Below are positions 36,442-44,294 of a stretch of 64,000 nt of DNA, in pieces; the first letter of the stretch is position 1; each line of letters begins with the position of its first letter. A program made the translations under genes and the position numbers. The notes under the pieces are model-generated. The model had not been told where the DNA came from, searched no databases, and saw only the letters and a program-made list of their open reading frames with translations. The DNA comes from Methylacidiphilum infernorum V4 (GTDB taxonomy: Bacteria; Verrucomicrobiota; Verrucomicrobiia; Methylacidiphilales; Methylacidiphilaceae). Location of the stretch: positions 2,046,001-2,110,000 of the forward strand of contig NC_010794.1 of NCBI RefSeq assembly GCF_000019665.1, in the 5' to 3' direction.

Positions 36442-37656
36442 TCACCGAAGATCGATTCGGGCTGCGTTCCACCGGTATTGGATCAAATCCCGGCTTTCGG
36501 TCCAAAGGAGGAGGAATCCGTCTTCCGTCCCGACAACCCGCGGATGGGTCGCCCAAGTCCCATCCTTGGAGACGGCCTTGGGAGGACTCCAGGAATTCCC
36601 CCCGTCAACCGAAAGGCTGGCCACGACACGGGAGGAGCTCGGGCCGGAGTCTTCCCAGGCAGCGCAAAGGGTTTGACCCGCGGCGGCTAGATCCACAAAT
36701 CTCCCCCTGGGTCCGGCAAGAACTAAAGGAGCACTCCAGTTCCACCCAAGATCGGTACTTTTTAAGAAGTAGAGCCCCGACCGCTCCGGCTTTCCCGTCT
36801 GCACCGCGGCACACAGGATAACCTTTTGACCCGAGGAAAGAGCCGCCATCCCCGCACCCCAGTGGGGACAACCCAAAAATTCCCAGTGAAAATCTCCAAG
36901 GGGGCCCACTCTTCTCCAACCTTCCCCTCGATCGAAGGAAACCGCAAGGCCCGTATCGCGGGGATGGGCCATCCGGTAAAGCACAAAAAGAGTCGAGCCG
37001 ACGTTCAAAATGGTATTGGGACAGCAGGTGCAGGTTTCGGGATCAATCGTTCGGTTCGCCGACCATCTCTTTCCCCCATCATCCGAAAAAGCGGCACGGA
37101 GACCAACCCGGCCATCCCGTTCATCAAGCCAAACGAGATGACACCTGCCCCCGGGGTCAAAACACAGATCAAGAAATCCATGCCCCCCGTTGGAATCGTT
37201 GTCATCCGCGGGATTTTTCCCGCTAAACCAACTCTTCCCCCCGTCGAGGGAATAGGCTATCCCGATCTTCCCCCTGCCCATGTAGCCACTCCCATGACCG
37301 GTCCAAGCGATAGTGATCTTCTTTCCCAGGGCGGCGATCTGGGGATCGGCACCCCGGTGCCCGGCGACAGGCGTAAAGTTTGTAGGCAGGTAAACCGGCA
37401 GAGAAAAGCTTCTTCCCCCATCAGCCGACCTACAGTAAAGAAGCCTTGGGAGTTGGCCCGAGAGTTCCTCTTCAAGGAGAAGGTGGATGCTCTTCCCATC
37501 CCGGTAAACGTCCAATCCCGTCGTTCCCGTCACTTCCGCATGGCGAGGTTGGAAGGAGTTGGGTTTGCCTTGGGAAGCAGAAGCATCCGGCCAACCGAAA
37601 AAAAGCAAGGAACAAGTCAAGCTCCAAGCAAGAAAGAAAACCCTTACCAGCTCCAT
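36442..37656 (-). CDS. Exported Asp-box (BNR) beta-propeller, sialidase-like
   Basis: A 404-residue protein with a signal peptide (core FFLAWSLTCSLLFFG). Six Asp-box repeats lie at 77-84, 136-143, 191-198, 240-247, 300-307 and 349-356 (SADGGRSF, SLDGGKSW, SDDGGKRW, SFDRGEGW, STDLGWNW, SVDGGNSW), giving a six-bladed propeller as in sialidases. True sialidase Arg triads are not obvious. Unusual is a CTCCPN motif at 209-214, with GCPHWG at 262, which could bind a metal. Its start overlaps the end of the TonB receptor at 37644 by 13 bases, so the two are coupled; uptake of a ligand captured by the propeller is a reasonable inference. A decayed copy lies at 33785. Confidence 0.8.
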   Translation of the reverse strand: MELVRVFFLAWSLTCSLLFFGWPDASASQGKPNSFQPRHAEVTGTTGLDVYRDGKSIHLLLEEELSGQLPRLLYCRSADGGRSFSLPVYLPTNFTPVAGHRGADPQIAALGKKITIAWTGHGSGYMGRGKIGIAYSLDGGKSWFSGKNPADDNDSNGGHGFLDLCFDPGGRCHLVWLDERDGRVGLRAAFSDDGGKRWSANRTIDPETCTCCPNTILNVGSTLFVLYRMAHPRDTGLAVSFDRGEGWRRVGPLGDFHWEFLGCPHWGAGMAALSSGQKVILCAAVQTGKPERSGLYFLKSTDLGWNWSAPLVLAGPRGRFVDLAAAGQTLCAAWEDSGPSSSRVVASLSVDGGNSWSPPKAVSKDGTWATHPRVVGTEDGFLLLWTESRDLIQYRWNAARIDLR

Positions 37657-40064
37657 TGGAACCCCCCGTAAAAAGCTTGCAAAAGACCGGGATAAAAAAC
37701 AGCCTGCGCCGAGGGACCCCCGGAAAGCATCGCGTTGGTCACGGGAGTAGCCGTTGCCGCGTAAATCTCGTTGGTGATGTTCCGGGCATCGAAATATACC
37801 GACCAGCCGTGGGCCGATACGTAACCAAGCCGAAATCCAAGAATCGCCCAGGAGGGAACATACAGGGTATCGGCATAATCGACCGGGTAAGGCGTAACCG
37901 ACGATTCGACGTTTGGGCCGATGTAAAACCCCGATGGATGTTGGTAGAGCAGTTGGGCTTGCAGGTAGTTTACCGGAAACAGGGGAAGCCTATTGTGATC
38001 GTAGACAGGATCGTTGGCAAAACGGAAGTTGCTGTACATGAAGTTGACATTCAAAACGAGCCTGTCCGGTTCCTTGTAATCCCCGAGGAACTGGGGAAGA
38101 AGCCTTTCGCCCAGGATAAATGTAAAGCCCGTCTCCACCCCTTGGAGTACCGTGGGAGAACCGTTGAAAGGAAAGGCCACGAAGGGAGAGCTTATCGCAG
38201 AGGGGTTACTTATTTGGGCGATCACGGCAGCCGGGTAGTAAAGGAGAATCTGGTCGTCCATCCAGTATTGATAAAAGGCGACATCCCACTGGATCCTCTT
38301 CCAGGAACCCCGGGTTCCCACGTCAATACCGGTGCCGGTTTCGGCTTGGAGAGGAAACATCGATTGACCCCTTGGGATAATCGAAGCCGCAGGGATCAAC
38401 TCGTAAAAGTTCGGGGGCTCAAAGACTCGGGTAAAGTTGGTATAGAACTGCACTTCCTTAATCGGCTGGTAAAGCAGGCCAAGCTTGGGATTGATCCCGT
38501 AGTAGTCGCGGCTCGAGGAGTTGTTTTGGAAAGCTTGGGGACCGTGTGGACCGAGGGGGACCTGGTTGTATGTTTCGGCACTGCGCAGGGAGTAGTCGAG
38601 CTGCATCCCGGCTATAAGCCAAAGCTTTTTCGTCAGCTCGAGGCTTTCCTGCATGTAGAGGGGAACGTTGGTGGCGATAAAGTTGGAGCTTCCCAGGAAA
38701 GCCCCTTGGGCCGGTGAAGGAAAATGCATGGCATATACAGTTTCTGCAGCAAACAGCCCCTGCGGGAGAATCCCGATGATATGCGTCTCGGGGAGGCCGA
38801 AAAGGGTCGATTTGCCGGTCAACTGGATGGGCAAGGCAAAGTCGTTGTAGCTTGCATGAAGGAATTGAAAGATCGGGTGCCAAAGCTGTGTATTATCCCA
38901 GACGGCTCCCAGGATAAGCGTCGTATCGGGATCGACCTGGACGGCCGCCCGGTCGGCGACGCGGACCAGGTCAAAGTAGCGGCGAAGGTCCATGAGGGAG
39001 AAGGAGGGCGAGCAGAAGGTGGGGTTGGCAAACATCTGGTCCAGGGTAAGGGTACTGGTCAGCTTCTCGCGCTGGTTCACGTAAGCAAAATAAACCCGGT
39101 TTTCCACGCTTGGACTGATCCGGTAGCCCAAGTTGACGTTCAGCCGAAGGTCGTTCATCGCGGAGTGGGCCCGGAAACCCTCGACGGCAACATCGGAAAG
39201 AGAAGCGTAAACATCGGCCTTCCCCATCACCTGTCCCGAGGCAAGCTGGCCCTGCCAAAAACCGTAACTGCCAATCTCAAAGAGGGCGAGGGCCTTCGGA
39301 GCGGTATAGCCCGTGTAGGAGGTAAAGTTGATGGCTCCCCCGCGATCAACAGCCCCGAACCTGAGGGCGTCGGCTCCACGCCACACCTGGACATATTGCA
39401 TCGCCAGCGGGTCGATGTTCGAGAAAGCGAGCATCTGGCCGTCAGCCATGGTCCAGGGTAGGCCATCTTGAAGGACGAGGATCCCAGGCAGGGTCCAAGT
39501 CGGCGAATTGAGCCCGGTTCCCCGGATCGAAAGGCGGTAATCGTTGGGTTCTCCCCATGCTTCCTGGATGTAGAGACCCGGCTGGTTGAGGAGGGCATCC
39601 CGCATCCCTTGGACCCGGCCCTTGCGGTAACTGCTTGCGGGAATGAAATTGGTAGGCCCCGGCACCTCTTCCATCTCCTCCTTGGCCTTGGCTTCCGAAG
39701 GAACGACAAGCGAAGTTTCGTGGGTAGCCTCGACCGTGATTTCTGCGATCTGGGTAGTGTCTAGAGGAACGTCCGAGGAAGGAGCGGAACTGCCGACACT
39801 TTGGTTATCCTGTGCCACAGAAGGTTCACTCGGGTCCTGGATACTTCCAGGCTTCTTTAAAGAACTATCTTGGCCCGATTGGCCGGATCCCTTTCCCGGA
39901 GATGAAATTTCTTGGGTAGTGCTTGGAACCCCACCCGGAAAGGCCGGGCTTTCTCCAAGTACTAAAAGAACAAGTAGGAATTGAAGAAAGTGAATCCGGG
40001 GAAGGATTCTCCCTTTTTCGCTTAAGCAAAGTTGACATGAGGCAAATTTTTTTTGAATGGTCAT
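37644..40064 (-). CDS. TonB-dependent outer-membrane receptor, different subfamily
   Basis: An 806-residue receptor with a long N-terminal leader: a hydrophobic segment (HFLQFLLVLLVLG) near residue 25, then about 70 Ser/Pro/Gln-rich residues, a possible TonB box near AEITVEATHE, and a plug with LSIRGTG, VLQDGLPW and VWRGADALRFG. The barrel ends in GFQWSW, an aromatic C-terminus. It does not share the TKQPYF motif of the other receptors here and is closer to the classical siderophore-receptor layout. It overlaps the propeller gene downstream by 13 bases. The substrate is unknown. Confidence 0.9.
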   Translation of the reverse strand: MTIQKKFASCQLCLSEKGRILPRIHFLQFLLVLLVLGESPAFPGGVPSTTQEISSPGKGSGQSGQDSSLKKPGSIQDPSEPSVAQDNQSVGSSAPSSDVPLDTTQIAEITVEATHETSLVVPSEAKAKEEMEEVPGPTNFIPASSYRKGRVQGMRDALLNQPGLYIQEAWGEPNDYRLSIRGTGLNSPTWTLPGILVLQDGLPWTMADGQMLAFSNIDPLAMQYVQVWRGADALRFGAVDRGGAINFTSYTGYTAPKALALFEIGSYGFWQGQLASGQVMGKADVYASLSDVAVEGFRAHSAMNDLRLNVNLGYRISPSVENRVYFAYVNQREKLTSTLTLDQMFANPTFCSPSFSLMDLRRYFDLVRVADRAAVQVDPDTTLILGAVWDNTQLWHPIFQFLHASYNDFALPIQLTGKSTLFGLPETHIIGILPQGLFAAETVYAMHFPSPAQGAFLGSSNFIATNVPLYMQESLELTKKLWLIAGMQLDYSLRSAETYNQVPLGPHGPQAFQNNSSSRDYYGINPKLGLLYQPIKEVQFYTNFTRVFEPPNFYELIPAASIIPRGQSMFPLQAETGTGIDVGTRGSWKRIQWDVAFYQYWMDDQILLYYPAAVIAQISNPSAISSPFVAFPFNGSPTVLQGVETGFTFILGERLLPQFLGDYKEPDRLVLNVNFMYSNFRFANDPVYDHNRLPLFPVNYLQAQLLYQHPSGFYIGPNVESSVTPYPVDYADTLYVPSWAILGFRLGYVSAHGWSVYFDARNITNEIYAATATPVTNAMLSGGPSAQAVFYPGLLQAFYGGFQWSW

Positions 40065-40726: not shown

Positions 40727-42055
40727 TTAAGATTGCTTGAGCTGCAAGACAAGGCTTTTGAAATGTTCTCCACGCTTTTCAAAATTAAGGTAAAGATGGT
40801 AGCTGGGAGCGGCGGGAGAAAAAAGACAGCTGTAACCCTTGGGAGTATATCGGCCAGCCAGTTCCACGGCTTCTTCGAGACTTTTGACCAAGAAGAGGTT
40901 TTTTTTGAACCCCATTTCTTTCAAGAGAAAACCGATCCGCCAACCGGTCTCGGGAAGGAGGATGAGGGTTTCCAGTTCTTGGACCGTGCAAAGCCTGGCA
41001 CAGAAAAGCCCTAGATCAACTCCCCTATCCTGTCCCCCCACGATGAGGGTGCGAACGGAAGGAATCGCCTCGATGCCGGCAAGGGTCGCTTCGGGGACGG
41101 TCGAGATCGAATCGTTGTAGTAAGAGATGCCCCCAACGGTCGCCACGTATTCAAGCCTATGGGGAAGTCCTCGAAAAGAACTTAGGGCTTCGGATATCGC
41201 CTCCGCAGGCATGCCCAGGAGCAAGGCGACCCTTGCGGCAAAAAGGGCATTCTTTTTATTATGCCTGCCGGGAATACCGAGCCGGGAGAGATCAACTTGG
41301 CTCCTTCCCTTCCCCTCTACGGGCAGAGGGATACCCGGCATTTTTTCCTGCGACAGGAGGAACAGCTCCAAGGCTTGATCGCCAGGATCGTAGATAAAAT
41401 AATCTTTTGGAGATTGGAACCGGCCGATGTGGCTTTTGGCCTGGGCATAGGCTTCGAAACTCCCATGGTAGTTGAGATGTTCGTGAAAAAGGTTAAGCCA
41501 AAGGGCGATTGCAGGAGAATGCTTGCAATATTCCAACTGGTAAGAAGAAAGCTCCAAGACGGCGATCGCCTTTTCATCGGCAAAGGGAAGAAGATGAAAG
41601 GGGGGGATCCCGATATTGCCACCCAGGTAAGCCTTAAAGCCTCCCTCTTTTAAGAGGTGATAAATTAAAGAGCTTGTCGTGCTCTTCCCCTTGGAGCCCG
41701 TCACCCCGACCGTTTTCCCCGGCCAAAACGAGAGGAAAATATCCGCCTGGGAAACGATTTTTTCCTTTATGGAAGGATCAAAACCAAGATGGGCCGTTCG
41801 AACACCCGGACTTTTAACGATCAGTTCAAACCGATCGATCTGCCTTAATAGTTCTTTCTCCTCGATTTTTATGATCCGGGGATCGTCCAAGGACTGCAAA
41901 GCTTGGGGGTCTCTATCGCTGACGGTGAAAAGAGTTCCAGGAATGGAATTCAAGAGAAATTCAACTGTAGCCTTCCCTTCTGCTCCCAATCCCCATAGAA
42001 CGGTCTTTTTCCCCGAAAAAAAATGGCGCAAAGAATCAATCATCGAAAAGAGCAT
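40727..42055 (-). CDS. murD: MurD-type UDP-MurNAc-L-Ala--glutamate ligase (MurD2-like)
   Basis: A 442-residue Mur ligase. ATP site GSKGKST at 120-126, a central ELSSYQLEY segment and the C-terminal domain with VGGQDRGVD are those of MurD, which adds glutamate to UDP-MurNAc-L-Ala in the cytoplasm. It overlaps murL upstream by 20 bases. In Xanthomonas a MurD variant (MurD2) paired with MurL adds L-Glu, which MurL then epimerises; the pairing here points to the same specificity. There are no other mur or fts genes around it, unlike a standard division cluster, which supports the MurD2 reading. Specificity cannot be proved from sequence alone. Confidence 0.85.
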   Translation of the reverse strand: MLFSMIDSLRHFFSGKKTVLWGLGAEGKATVEFLLNSIPGTLFTVSDRDPQALQSLDDPRIIKIEEKELLRQIDRFELIVKSPGVRTAHLGFDPSIKEKIVSQADIFLSFWPGKTVGVTGSKGKSTTSSLIYHLLKEGGFKAYLGGNIGIPPFHLLPFADEKAIAVLELSSYQLEYCKHSPAIALWLNLFHEHLNYHGSFEAYAQAKSHIGRFQSPKDYFIYDPGDQALELFLLSQEKMPGIPLPVEGKGRSQVDLSRLGIPGRHNKKNALFAARVALLLGMPAEAISEALSSFRGLPHRLEYVATVGGISYYNDSISTVPEATLAGIEAIPSVRTLIVGGQDRGVDLGLFCARLCTVQELETLILLPETGWRIGFLLKEMGFKKNLFLVKSLEEAVELAGRYTPKGYSCLFSPAAPSYHLYLNFEKRGEHFKSLVLQLKQS

Positions 42056-43460
42056 TTTCTATAACATTCTTCCTAAAAAGCGACAAAAATTTTTGAGAAA
42101 GACCATGTTGGGGATTAATCCGGTCATACAGGGCTTGAATAGAGCTTCTTGCCATAAGCAGGTGGGGAAACTGCTTAAAGAGCTTTGCAATCAACAGGGG
42201 GGGAGGATTGCCCGCGGCTTTTGCCTTGTGCCAGATCAGGCTTGCCGCAGCCCGGCATTCTTCTTCTGTCCCCAGGCATTCAAAGGGTTTTTCTTCTCCT
42301 TCTCCACATAGAGACAAAAGGAGGGCAAAGAGCGATTCTCTTTCCAGGAGGTCCGATCCGAAAACAGCTACGATCCTTTTTGCTTCTACAAACGGCCTTA
42401 AGATCAAAAAGCTAAACAAGCATTTTGCACATTGGCCGCACCAGCCCCCGCAAAGCCTATTTTTATTGCAACTTTGAAAGACGGACAACGAACCGGGAAT
42501 CGCGGAGACAAACCTGGCGATCTGGATTTCACTTAATGGCCTTAAAAGACTAAAATAGCTAAAAGAGGGGCAAAGAGAATTCGACAAGTAACTTTGAAAG
42601 TCTTTTTCAAACTCGTAGGACTTCGAATACTGATGGTTAATGCCCCTAGAGGGGATCGTCGGGTAATTGGCGCTGGATTCGTGACTGGCAACGAAATTTT
42701 CTTTCTTGTACAGGGCCATGAGCAGGACTCCCATAAAGGCCAACAGGGCCGAAAAGGGAGTATGACCGTTAAGGAAGCCTTTGTTGTTGAGTTCGAGAAG
42801 ACGACCGTCAATCTGCCTTTCGATCACTACAACCTGCTCTAAAGGATAATCGAAAAACCTTACCGTGTCCCATTGGGCTTTAACGGGATTCAACAAAAAA
42901 CAGAGGTTATCTCTTTTCTCCCCTTTCATCCACTGCAAGGTCAAAAAAGAATCTTTGCCCCCTCCGACAGGGATCAAGTTGCCCGATAAAGAGGGAATTT
43001 CGACAGGGAGAAACGCCTTGGAGGAAAGACATTCCAGCTGGAATAGATCTGGCATGTCCTGCTCGATCCCGTTGCGGAAAAAAAATTCTCCCATCCCCTT
43101 TAAATAAAGCTTTCTCCACCACGCCAACTGTCCTGGAGAAAGGGAGGCAGGTTCAATAAGGATTAAGGGAGAGCAGGTTGCTTTCCAGTAGCTAACCAGT
43201 TCGATTAACCCGATGTGAAAAAGGAATGGGTCCAGAAATTCTACCGGGGCTTTTTCGACCGCCTTTGCGTACACCTTCAAGGAAGGATGGAAAAAAAGGC
43301 CGCTTTGCCTGCCGTTTCCCGTCCAAAATTCATACTCAACAAAAAGATGATCCGCCCTCTTTTCCCTTGAAATACGGCTGAAAACAAACCGCGGGTAACA
43401 TTTCCTGAGCAGCAAAAAATCTTTTTTCCCTATCCCCGAGGCGACATATTCCATGGTCAA
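42036..43460 (-). CDS. murL: UDP-MurNAc-L-Ala-L-Glu epimerase MurL
   Basis: A 474-residue protein with the MurL signatures: PVGGGKDS at 164-171 (an ATP-binding P-loop of the PP-loop type), NGHTPFSA at 231-238, SHESSANYP near 259 and NHQYSKSYEFE at 275-285, then CGGWCGQCAKC at 337-347. MurL turns the terminal L-Glu of UDP-MurNAc-L-Ala-L-Glu into D-Glu using ATP, replacing glutamate racemase as the source of D-Glu in peptidoglycan. It lies just upstream of, and overlaps by 20 bases, the MurD-type ligase, as in known MurL organisms. Start Met1 or Met3. Confidence 0.88.
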   Translation of the reverse strand: MTMEYVASGIGKKDFLLLRKCYPRFVFSRISREKRADHLFVEYEFWTGNGRQSGLFFHPSLKVYAKAVEKAPVEFLDPFLFHIGLIELVSYWKATCSPLILIEPASLSPGQLAWWRKLYLKGMGEFFFRNGIEQDMPDLFQLECLSSKAFLPVEIPSLSGNLIPVGGGKDSFLTLQWMKGEKRDNLCFLLNPVKAQWDTVRFFDYPLEQVVVIERQIDGRLLELNNKGFLNGHTPFSALLAFMGVLLMALYKKENFVASHESSANYPTIPSRGINHQYSKSYEFEKDFQSYLSNSLCPSFSYFSLLRPLSEIQIARFVSAIPGSLSVFQSCNKNRLCGGWCGQCAKCLFSFLILRPFVEAKRIVAVFGSDLLERESLFALLLSLCGEGEEKPFECLGTEEECRAAASLIWHKAKAAGNPPPLLIAKLFKQFPHLLMARSSIQALYDRINPQHGLSQKFLSLFRKNVIENALFDD

Positions 43461-43485: not shown

Positions 43486-44229
43486 TCAACGAAAGGCAAG
43501 GTTTGCGGCTTCAAGAACTTCTTTGCTCCCGATATCAAACCATAGACCCGGTAGCTGCCAGACGTAGACATCTTCTCTTCTATAAAGCCACTGGATAAAC
43601 CGACCGGGCTGATCGGCATTCTTTTCTTCCTTGAGGTAAGCCTTGAGAAAGGTTAACGACGGCTTGGGAAAAAAATAGAGGGCCATGGCTACCCATGTCG
43701 TAGGAGGGGTTTGCGGCTTTTCTTCAAAAAAAGTCAGTTTCTTGTTCCGATCGAAATCCACGACCCCATACTTGGAAGCCAAGCTTTTATCCTTGAGATT
43801 GTATATCCCTACAACCGGTTTATTTTTTGCCTTGCCCTCTTCTACGAAAGAAAGAAGGGAAGCGTTGAAAAGGTTGTCGCTGGCGACAACCACCAAATCA
43901 TCCCCGATCTTTTTTGTCTCTATGGCAAAATCCATGTCGCCGATCGCTCCCAGCCGATTATTTTCCGTTGTCGAGCCATCGTCCAGGACTTCCAGGGGAA
44001 GCTTTTTTACCGCCCCCTGCTGGTAGCGGTTCTTCCATTCCAAGAAATGGGTATAGAACTTGTGATTGGTCACCACGTAGATGGCTTCCAAGGCAGGCAG
44101 TTCCAGGAGCTTGTCCGTGATGTAGTCCATGATCGGTTTGCCGGCAACCGGCAAAAGGGCTTTAGGTTGGTTCAACGTCAAAGGATAAAGCCTCGTTGCA
44201 TAACCGGCGGAAAGCAGTAAAGCTCGCAT
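43486..44229 (-). CDS. Sugar-1-phosphate nucleotidyltransferase
   Basis: A 247-residue enzyme of the NTP-transferase family (glucose-1-phosphate thymidylyl/uridylyl type). The N-terminal LLSAGYATRLYPLTLNQPKALLPVAGKP is the nucleotide/Mg site, with the active Lys in KALLP; VVASDNLF carries the metal Asp, and FEEKPQTP is typical. The start at 44229 has AGAGG 9 bases upstream; an upstream ATG at 44256 is less likely. It lies 25 bp before murL. The activated sugar is not clear; a cell-wall or surface sugar fits the neighbours. Confidence 0.88.
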   Translation of the reverse strand: MRALLLSAGYATRLYPLTLNQPKALLPVAGKPIMDYITDKLLELPALEAIYVVTNHKFYTHFLEWKNRYQQGAVKKLPLEVLDDGSTTENNRLGAIGDMDFAIETKKIGDDLVVVASDNLFNASLLSFVEEGKAKNKPVVGIYNLKDKSLASKYGVVDFDRNKKLTFFEEKPQTPPTTWVAMALYFFPKPSLTFLKAYLKEEKNADQPGRFIQWLYRREDVYVWQLPGLWFDIGSKEVLEAANLAFR

Positions 44230-44294
44230 GTTTTTTCCTCTTGGGTAATTTTTCAATCAACTTTGAAAAATTTTTAAAGCTATTATATAGCCTC

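Follow-up and report, generated by a model that had tools for sequence, protein, structure and literature searches.

A murL-murD2 gene pair as the probable source of peptidoglycan D-glutamate in Methylacidiphilum infernorum V4

D-glutamate (D-Glu) is a near-universal constituent of peptidoglycan, and how bacteria that lack the glutamate racemase gene murI obtain it is a standing question, particularly in the Planctomycetes-Verrucomicrobia-Chlamydiae (PVC) superphylum, where DapF has been proposed as the general answer. The question is raised in concrete form by two overlapping genes, murL and murD2, of the acid-loving, methane-eating bacterium Methylacidiphilum infernorum V4. These genes lie in a 64,000-nucleotide stretch of its genome (the window; contig NC_010794.1, positions 2,046,001 to 2,110,000), and were read in an earlier note on this DNA as a MurL homologue overlapping a MurD-type ligase outside any division cluster. 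Both open reading frames were found as described. murL (42036..43460, reverse strand) encodes 474 residues and matches the MurL model NF041275 (206 bits, E 8e-61); a second ATG at 43454, two codons downstream, is an equally plausible start. murD2 (40727..42055, reverse strand) encodes a MurD of 442 residues that scores 297 bits with TIGR01087 (cut-off 212; E 2e-88). The 3' end of murL overlaps the start of murD2 (42036..42055, reverse strand) by 20 nt when counted from the first murD ATG and by 8 nt from the second in-frame ATG, which suggests translational coupling. The results described below indicate that the two genes very probably form a working MurD2-MurL module, on which this organism depends entirely for its peptidoglycan D-Glu.

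The genome of M. infernorum V4 is one complete contig of 2,287,145 bp. Peptidoglycan is evidently made, since MurC-MurB, MurE, MurF, MraY, MurG, FtsW and Ddl are all present. A genome-wide search for glutamate racemase gave no match to PF01177 or TIGR00067, while control searches responded; a divergent, hidden murI was ruled out by these same two models. The absence agrees with the bypass of the racemase that had been proposed from the locus alone. No protein of the genome other than the window MurD scored above the MurD cut-off, and matches in the division cluster, considered as a possible second, canonical MurD, turned out to be MurC, MurE and MurF. The MurL homologue is therefore paired with the sole MurD in a genome without MurI. 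No mention of peptidoglycan or murI turned up in a search of the genome paper (PMC2474590).

The specificity of this single MurD can be predicted by comparison with Xanthomonas oryzae MurD2, in which replacement of Glu197 and Arg358 by their E. coli counterparts (Asp182 and Lys348) switches the substrate from L-Glu to D-Glu; conversely, E. coli MurD gains acceptance of L-Glu through K319T (PMC8788868). In the alignment, the M. infernorum enzyme has Glu192 (41480..41482, reverse strand) at the position of E. coli Asp182 and X. oryzae Glu197, Ile317 (41105..41107, reverse strand) at the position of E. coli Lys319, and Arg344 (41024..41026, reverse strand) at the position of E. coli Lys348 and X. 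oryzae Arg358. It thus carries the Glu/Arg combination of MurD2, and the catalytic positions of Mur ligases (H183, K198, T321, S415 and F422, E. coli numbering) are conserved. The same Glu/Ile/Arg set occurs in all 14 MurL-linked MurDs of Methylacidiphilales in the alignment, as well as in genome G008, and in all 11 Xanthomonas-type loci, whereas the MurDs of sister families have Asp/Lys/Lys without exception (29/29). Hence the changed ligase specificity foreseen in the earlier note is borne out at the level of these residues, and the window MurD2 is predicted to use L-Glu rather than D-Glu.

How the pair relates to the usual genes is apparent from the division (dcw) cluster, which lies at ~1.31–1.32 Mb, so that the pair is indeed located outside it. 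The cluster contains FtsI, MurE, MurF, MraY, a LysM protein, FtsW, MurG, a MurC-MurB fusion (761 residues, L010:7561-9846) and Ddl, and MurD is missing. In seven sister families of the order, murD is found in this cluster, in the order mraY-murD-LysM-ftsW, and murI is present. The order in M. infernorum is mraY-LysM-ftsW (the LysM gene being named from its similarity to the sister-family gene), with a gap of 24 bp between mraY and the LysM gene; nothing occupies the place of murD. The canonical dcw gene has been lost, and the window MurD is not an extra copy beside a canonical one.

A survey of 60 genomes of the order showed the same exchange. All 13 genomes of family f1 contain MurL and lack PF01177, and the opposite holds for the sister families, in all 14 genomes with a completeness of 90% or more; the seven PF01177 proteins checked from sister families are all true MurI. 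Two genomes of the neighbour family f2 (L060 and L062) contain MurL together with PF01177 matches, but these were rejected as counter-examples, as they match cysteate/aspartate racemase models and, at the cut-off applied, no glutamate racemase model. In all MurL-bearing genomes of the order, G008 among them, a single MurD is present and adjoins MurL. We propose that murI and the dcw murD both gave way to the pair in the common ancestor of Methylacidiphilaceae and the neighbour family. Among 194 genomes of the phylum, MurL was found in this order only, except for one weak match of 67 bits. The latter is a remote MurL-like protein (L044) from another verrucomicrobial family (G120), with no MurD found in its locus. 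Many other near-complete Verrucomicrobiota (e.g. family f4, genus g5) have neither MurI (TIGR00067) nor MurL; DapF or a transaminase may be the source of D-Glu in these bacteria.

The M. infernorum MurL can be aligned over its full length with Xanthomonas-type MurLs, which places it in the broad MurL family, and the match to NF041275 spans residues 82–413. All columns that are invariant in 45 MurLs are retained. These include an ATP-binding PP-loop motif, GGGKDS (residues 166–171; 42948..42965, reverse strand), of which G167, G168, K169 and D170 are invariant, and a QueC-type zinc motif, C331-x9-C341-xx-C344-xx-C347 (residues 331–347; 42420..42470, reverse strand), with four invariant cysteines. 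A third motif, NHQYSKS (residues 275–281; 42618..42638, reverse strand; N275, H276, Q277, S279 and K280 invariant), is located in the QueC-like core and is a candidate for substrate binding or catalysis. Candidate catalytic bases are provided by its NHQYSK portion (275–280) and by E261, E285 and R307.

MurL has been described as a protein with no known domains that consumes ATP to AMP. Pfam gave no domain in the window MurL. QueC sensu stricto (PF06508) had no match in it either, and three of the 45 MurLs matched that family with E 0.039 at best. Sixteen of the 45 weakly match DUF6395 (PF19932; best E 0.0014), perhaps a related QueC-like family. A single-sequence search found no solved MurL structure. 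An AlphaFold2 model computed with 45 sequences (pLDDT 93.8, pTM 0.93) resembles QatC most closely (Z 17.6 over 321 residues), followed by QueC (Z 13.2 and 12.6) and Cap9 (Z 12.1); argininosuccinate synthases form the next group (Z 9.0). Foldseek searches with the model likewise returned QatC (E 7.7e-5) and QueC (E 3.4e-3). At the sequence level, the MurL profile aligns its PP-loop with that of TtuA (E 2e-5), and hhalign of the MurL alignment against the single E. coli QueC sequence aligned the zinc motif alone (probability 76%).

The likeness to QatC (PDB code 9y01_B) includes the N-terminal part, and both QatC and QueC (PDB codes 2pg3 and 3bl5) share with MurL a GGxDS-type PP-loop and a four-cysteine zinc motif. 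The hallmarks of QueC are SGGxDS and C(x)8CxxCxxC (PMC13329287). MurL differs in having GGGKDS rather than SGGxDS and a first cysteine spacer that varies in length across the family (nine residues here, rather than eight); sequence identity is ~10%, and the substrate of MurL would be UDP-muramyl dipeptide. Thus, the model and the GGGKDS motif match a QueC/QatC-fold PP-loop enzyme that uses ATP and carries a four-cysteine zinc motif. Such a fold, being that of ATP-using enzymes, fits the reported epimerization with conversion of ATP to AMP.

When 85,000 species genomes were scanned, another 25 MurL loci came to light in Bacteroidales, Clostridia, Bacilli, Bdellovibrionales, Alphaproteobacteria and several groups of the Candidate Phyla Radiation (CPR). 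The published distribution covers some Gamma- and Alphaproteobacteria and rare actinobacteria, with orthologues of low similarity in cyanobacteria, a fungus and an amoeba. MurD is adjacent or fused to MurL in all 25 loci, and in six CPR loci (L028, L029, L030, L032, L033 and L036) the two form one open reading frame of 779–888 residues. ftsW and murG were observed near the fused genes of L028, L032, L033 and L036. None of the 25 genomes, many of which are metagenome-assembled genomes of unknown completeness, has a MurI above the cut-off. Glu/Ile/Arg is present in 13 of the 25 MurL-linked MurDs; the first two positions are variable, and lysine occurs at the K319 or K348 position in none. One alphaproteobacterial locus (L035/L120) has a divergent MurL convergent to its MurD, with Asp/Leu/Arg at the specificity positions of the latter, and may be a variant.

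In quick trees, in which canonical MurDs were few (E. coli plus 12 from sister families), one branch divides MurL-linked from canonical MurDs (SH-aLRT 99). Methylacidiphilales are placed apart from the Xanthomonas type in both the MurL and the MurD trees, nearer to Bacteroidales and Bacillota. The single branch of MurL-linked MurDs and the same grouping in both trees suggest that murL and murD2 probably travelled together; the closest relatives being in Bacteroidales and Bacillota, the pair was not recently acquired from Xanthomonas. Each in silico prediction of the earlier note came true; the two refinements to it are these closest relatives and the loss of the canonical MurD. In the open-access literature, which does not cover the first publications on MurL, no report was found of MurL in Verrucomicrobiota or of a QueC-like MurL.

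In the proposed pathway, MurD2 would add L-Glu, and MurL would then flip this residue to D-Glu. MurL would adenylate the α-carboxylate of the terminal L-Glu at its PP-loop. Because activation of the carboxyl group would render the Cα proton acidic, the residue could be deprotonated and then reprotonated from the opposite face, after which MurL would hydrolyze the activated product. The adenylate route is a published hypothesis for Xanthomonas MurL, to which the present analysis adds a matching fold. The X. oryzae genes (MurD2, XOO_1320; MurL, XOO_1319) likewise form an adjacent pair in a genome without murI, and the two systems share Glu and Arg at both positions of the stereospecificity switch, Ile at the third position (throughout the Xanthomonas-type loci) and the same invariant MurL motifs. 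The direct basis of this proposal consists of genes, gene absences, residue states, gene order, phylogeny and a predicted fold, from which we infer the catalytic activities and chemical steps.

Several points weigh against this interpretation. The M. infernorum MurL shares only ~25% identity with Xanthomonas-type MurL and belongs to a separate clade, and its 206 bits are below the NF041275 cut-off of 700, so that it is not assigned as the Xanthomonadales equivalog; the model is specific to Xanthomonadales, and the MurL matches of ten other pseudomonadotal genomes do not reach this value either. Arginine at the K348 position does not suffice by itself as a marker, because streptococcal MurD carries it yet uses D-Glu physiologically. 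The sparse canonical MurDs limit the trees, and DapF could, by analogy with Chlamydia, racemize Glu as a backup supply. On the other side, loss of murI, loss of the dcw murD, the residue switch and the linkage of the two genes all agree, which makes the evidence stronger than recognition of motifs.

The alternative that survives best, although it is improbable, is that, as in Chlamydia trachomatis, a bifunctional DapF supplies D-Glu, with the window MurD using D-Glu and MurL doing something else. Liechti et al. 2018 (PMC5885031) proposed such a DapF for PVC bacteria that lack murI, and extended the proposal even to Xanthomonas. One DapF is encoded in the M. infernorum genome, but its presence does not discriminate, because DapF is needed for meso-diaminopimelate anyway. 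The chlamydial enzyme, like MurD2-MurL, dispenses with MurI; however, it is unrelated, yields free D-Glu and needs a normal D-Glu-specific MurD, whereas the MurD adjacent to MurL has the L-Glu residues. Moreover, Xanthomonas was shown to use MurD2/MurL (PMC8788868), and within the order MurL occurs where MurI has been lost. A DapF route would leave both MurL and the altered MurD residues unexplained.

Less likely still is a class IV aminotransferase that acts as a D-amino-acid transaminase and supplies D-Glu, again with a MurD that uses D-Glu. The genome does have two PF01063 proteins, but one scores above IlvE cut-offs (TIGR01122 and PRK08320), the other is PabC-like, and neither reaches the cut-off of 277 bits for a D-amino-acid transaminase (180.8 and 56.7 bits, respectively). 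Just as doubtful is the idea, prompted by the resemblance to QueC and to the deazaguanylating defence protein QatC, that MurL performs another reaction of this type (e.g. conjugation or amidation) and neighbours murD incidentally, since MurD is linked or fused in every other-phylum locus and in all Methylacidiphilales examined, and such a role would not account for the loss of murI.

A nucleotidyltransferase-family gene (43486..44256, reverse strand; PF00483, without a clear equivalog assignment) is located 25 bp upstream of murL, and adjoins murL in every family f1 locus that was examined. Downstream of murD2, a TonB-dependent receptor is followed by a BNR-repeat protein (36442–40064).

The pathway itself is already known; the new elements are the lineage, the clean gene swap, a breadth beyond that given in reviews and the fold assignment of MurL. 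The locus offers a concrete, testable alternative to DapF in the complete genome of an isolated organism, together with a before-and-after comparison within one order, in which murI and the dcw murD were lost and MurD2-MurL was gained. It also extends the known distribution of a pathway that is under study as a target for narrow-spectrum antibiotics, and a QueC/QatC fold would give MurL a structural basis for its ATP-to-AMP chemistry. More broadly, it seems likely that MurD2-MurL is a widespread, co-inherited module that replaces MurI and canonical MurD in several phyla, sometimes as a fusion, that MurL is a PP-loop enzyme of the QueC/QatC fold recruited for peptidoglycan stereochemistry, and that MurD2-MurL serves in some PVC bacteria for which a dependence on DapF for D-Glu has been assumed.
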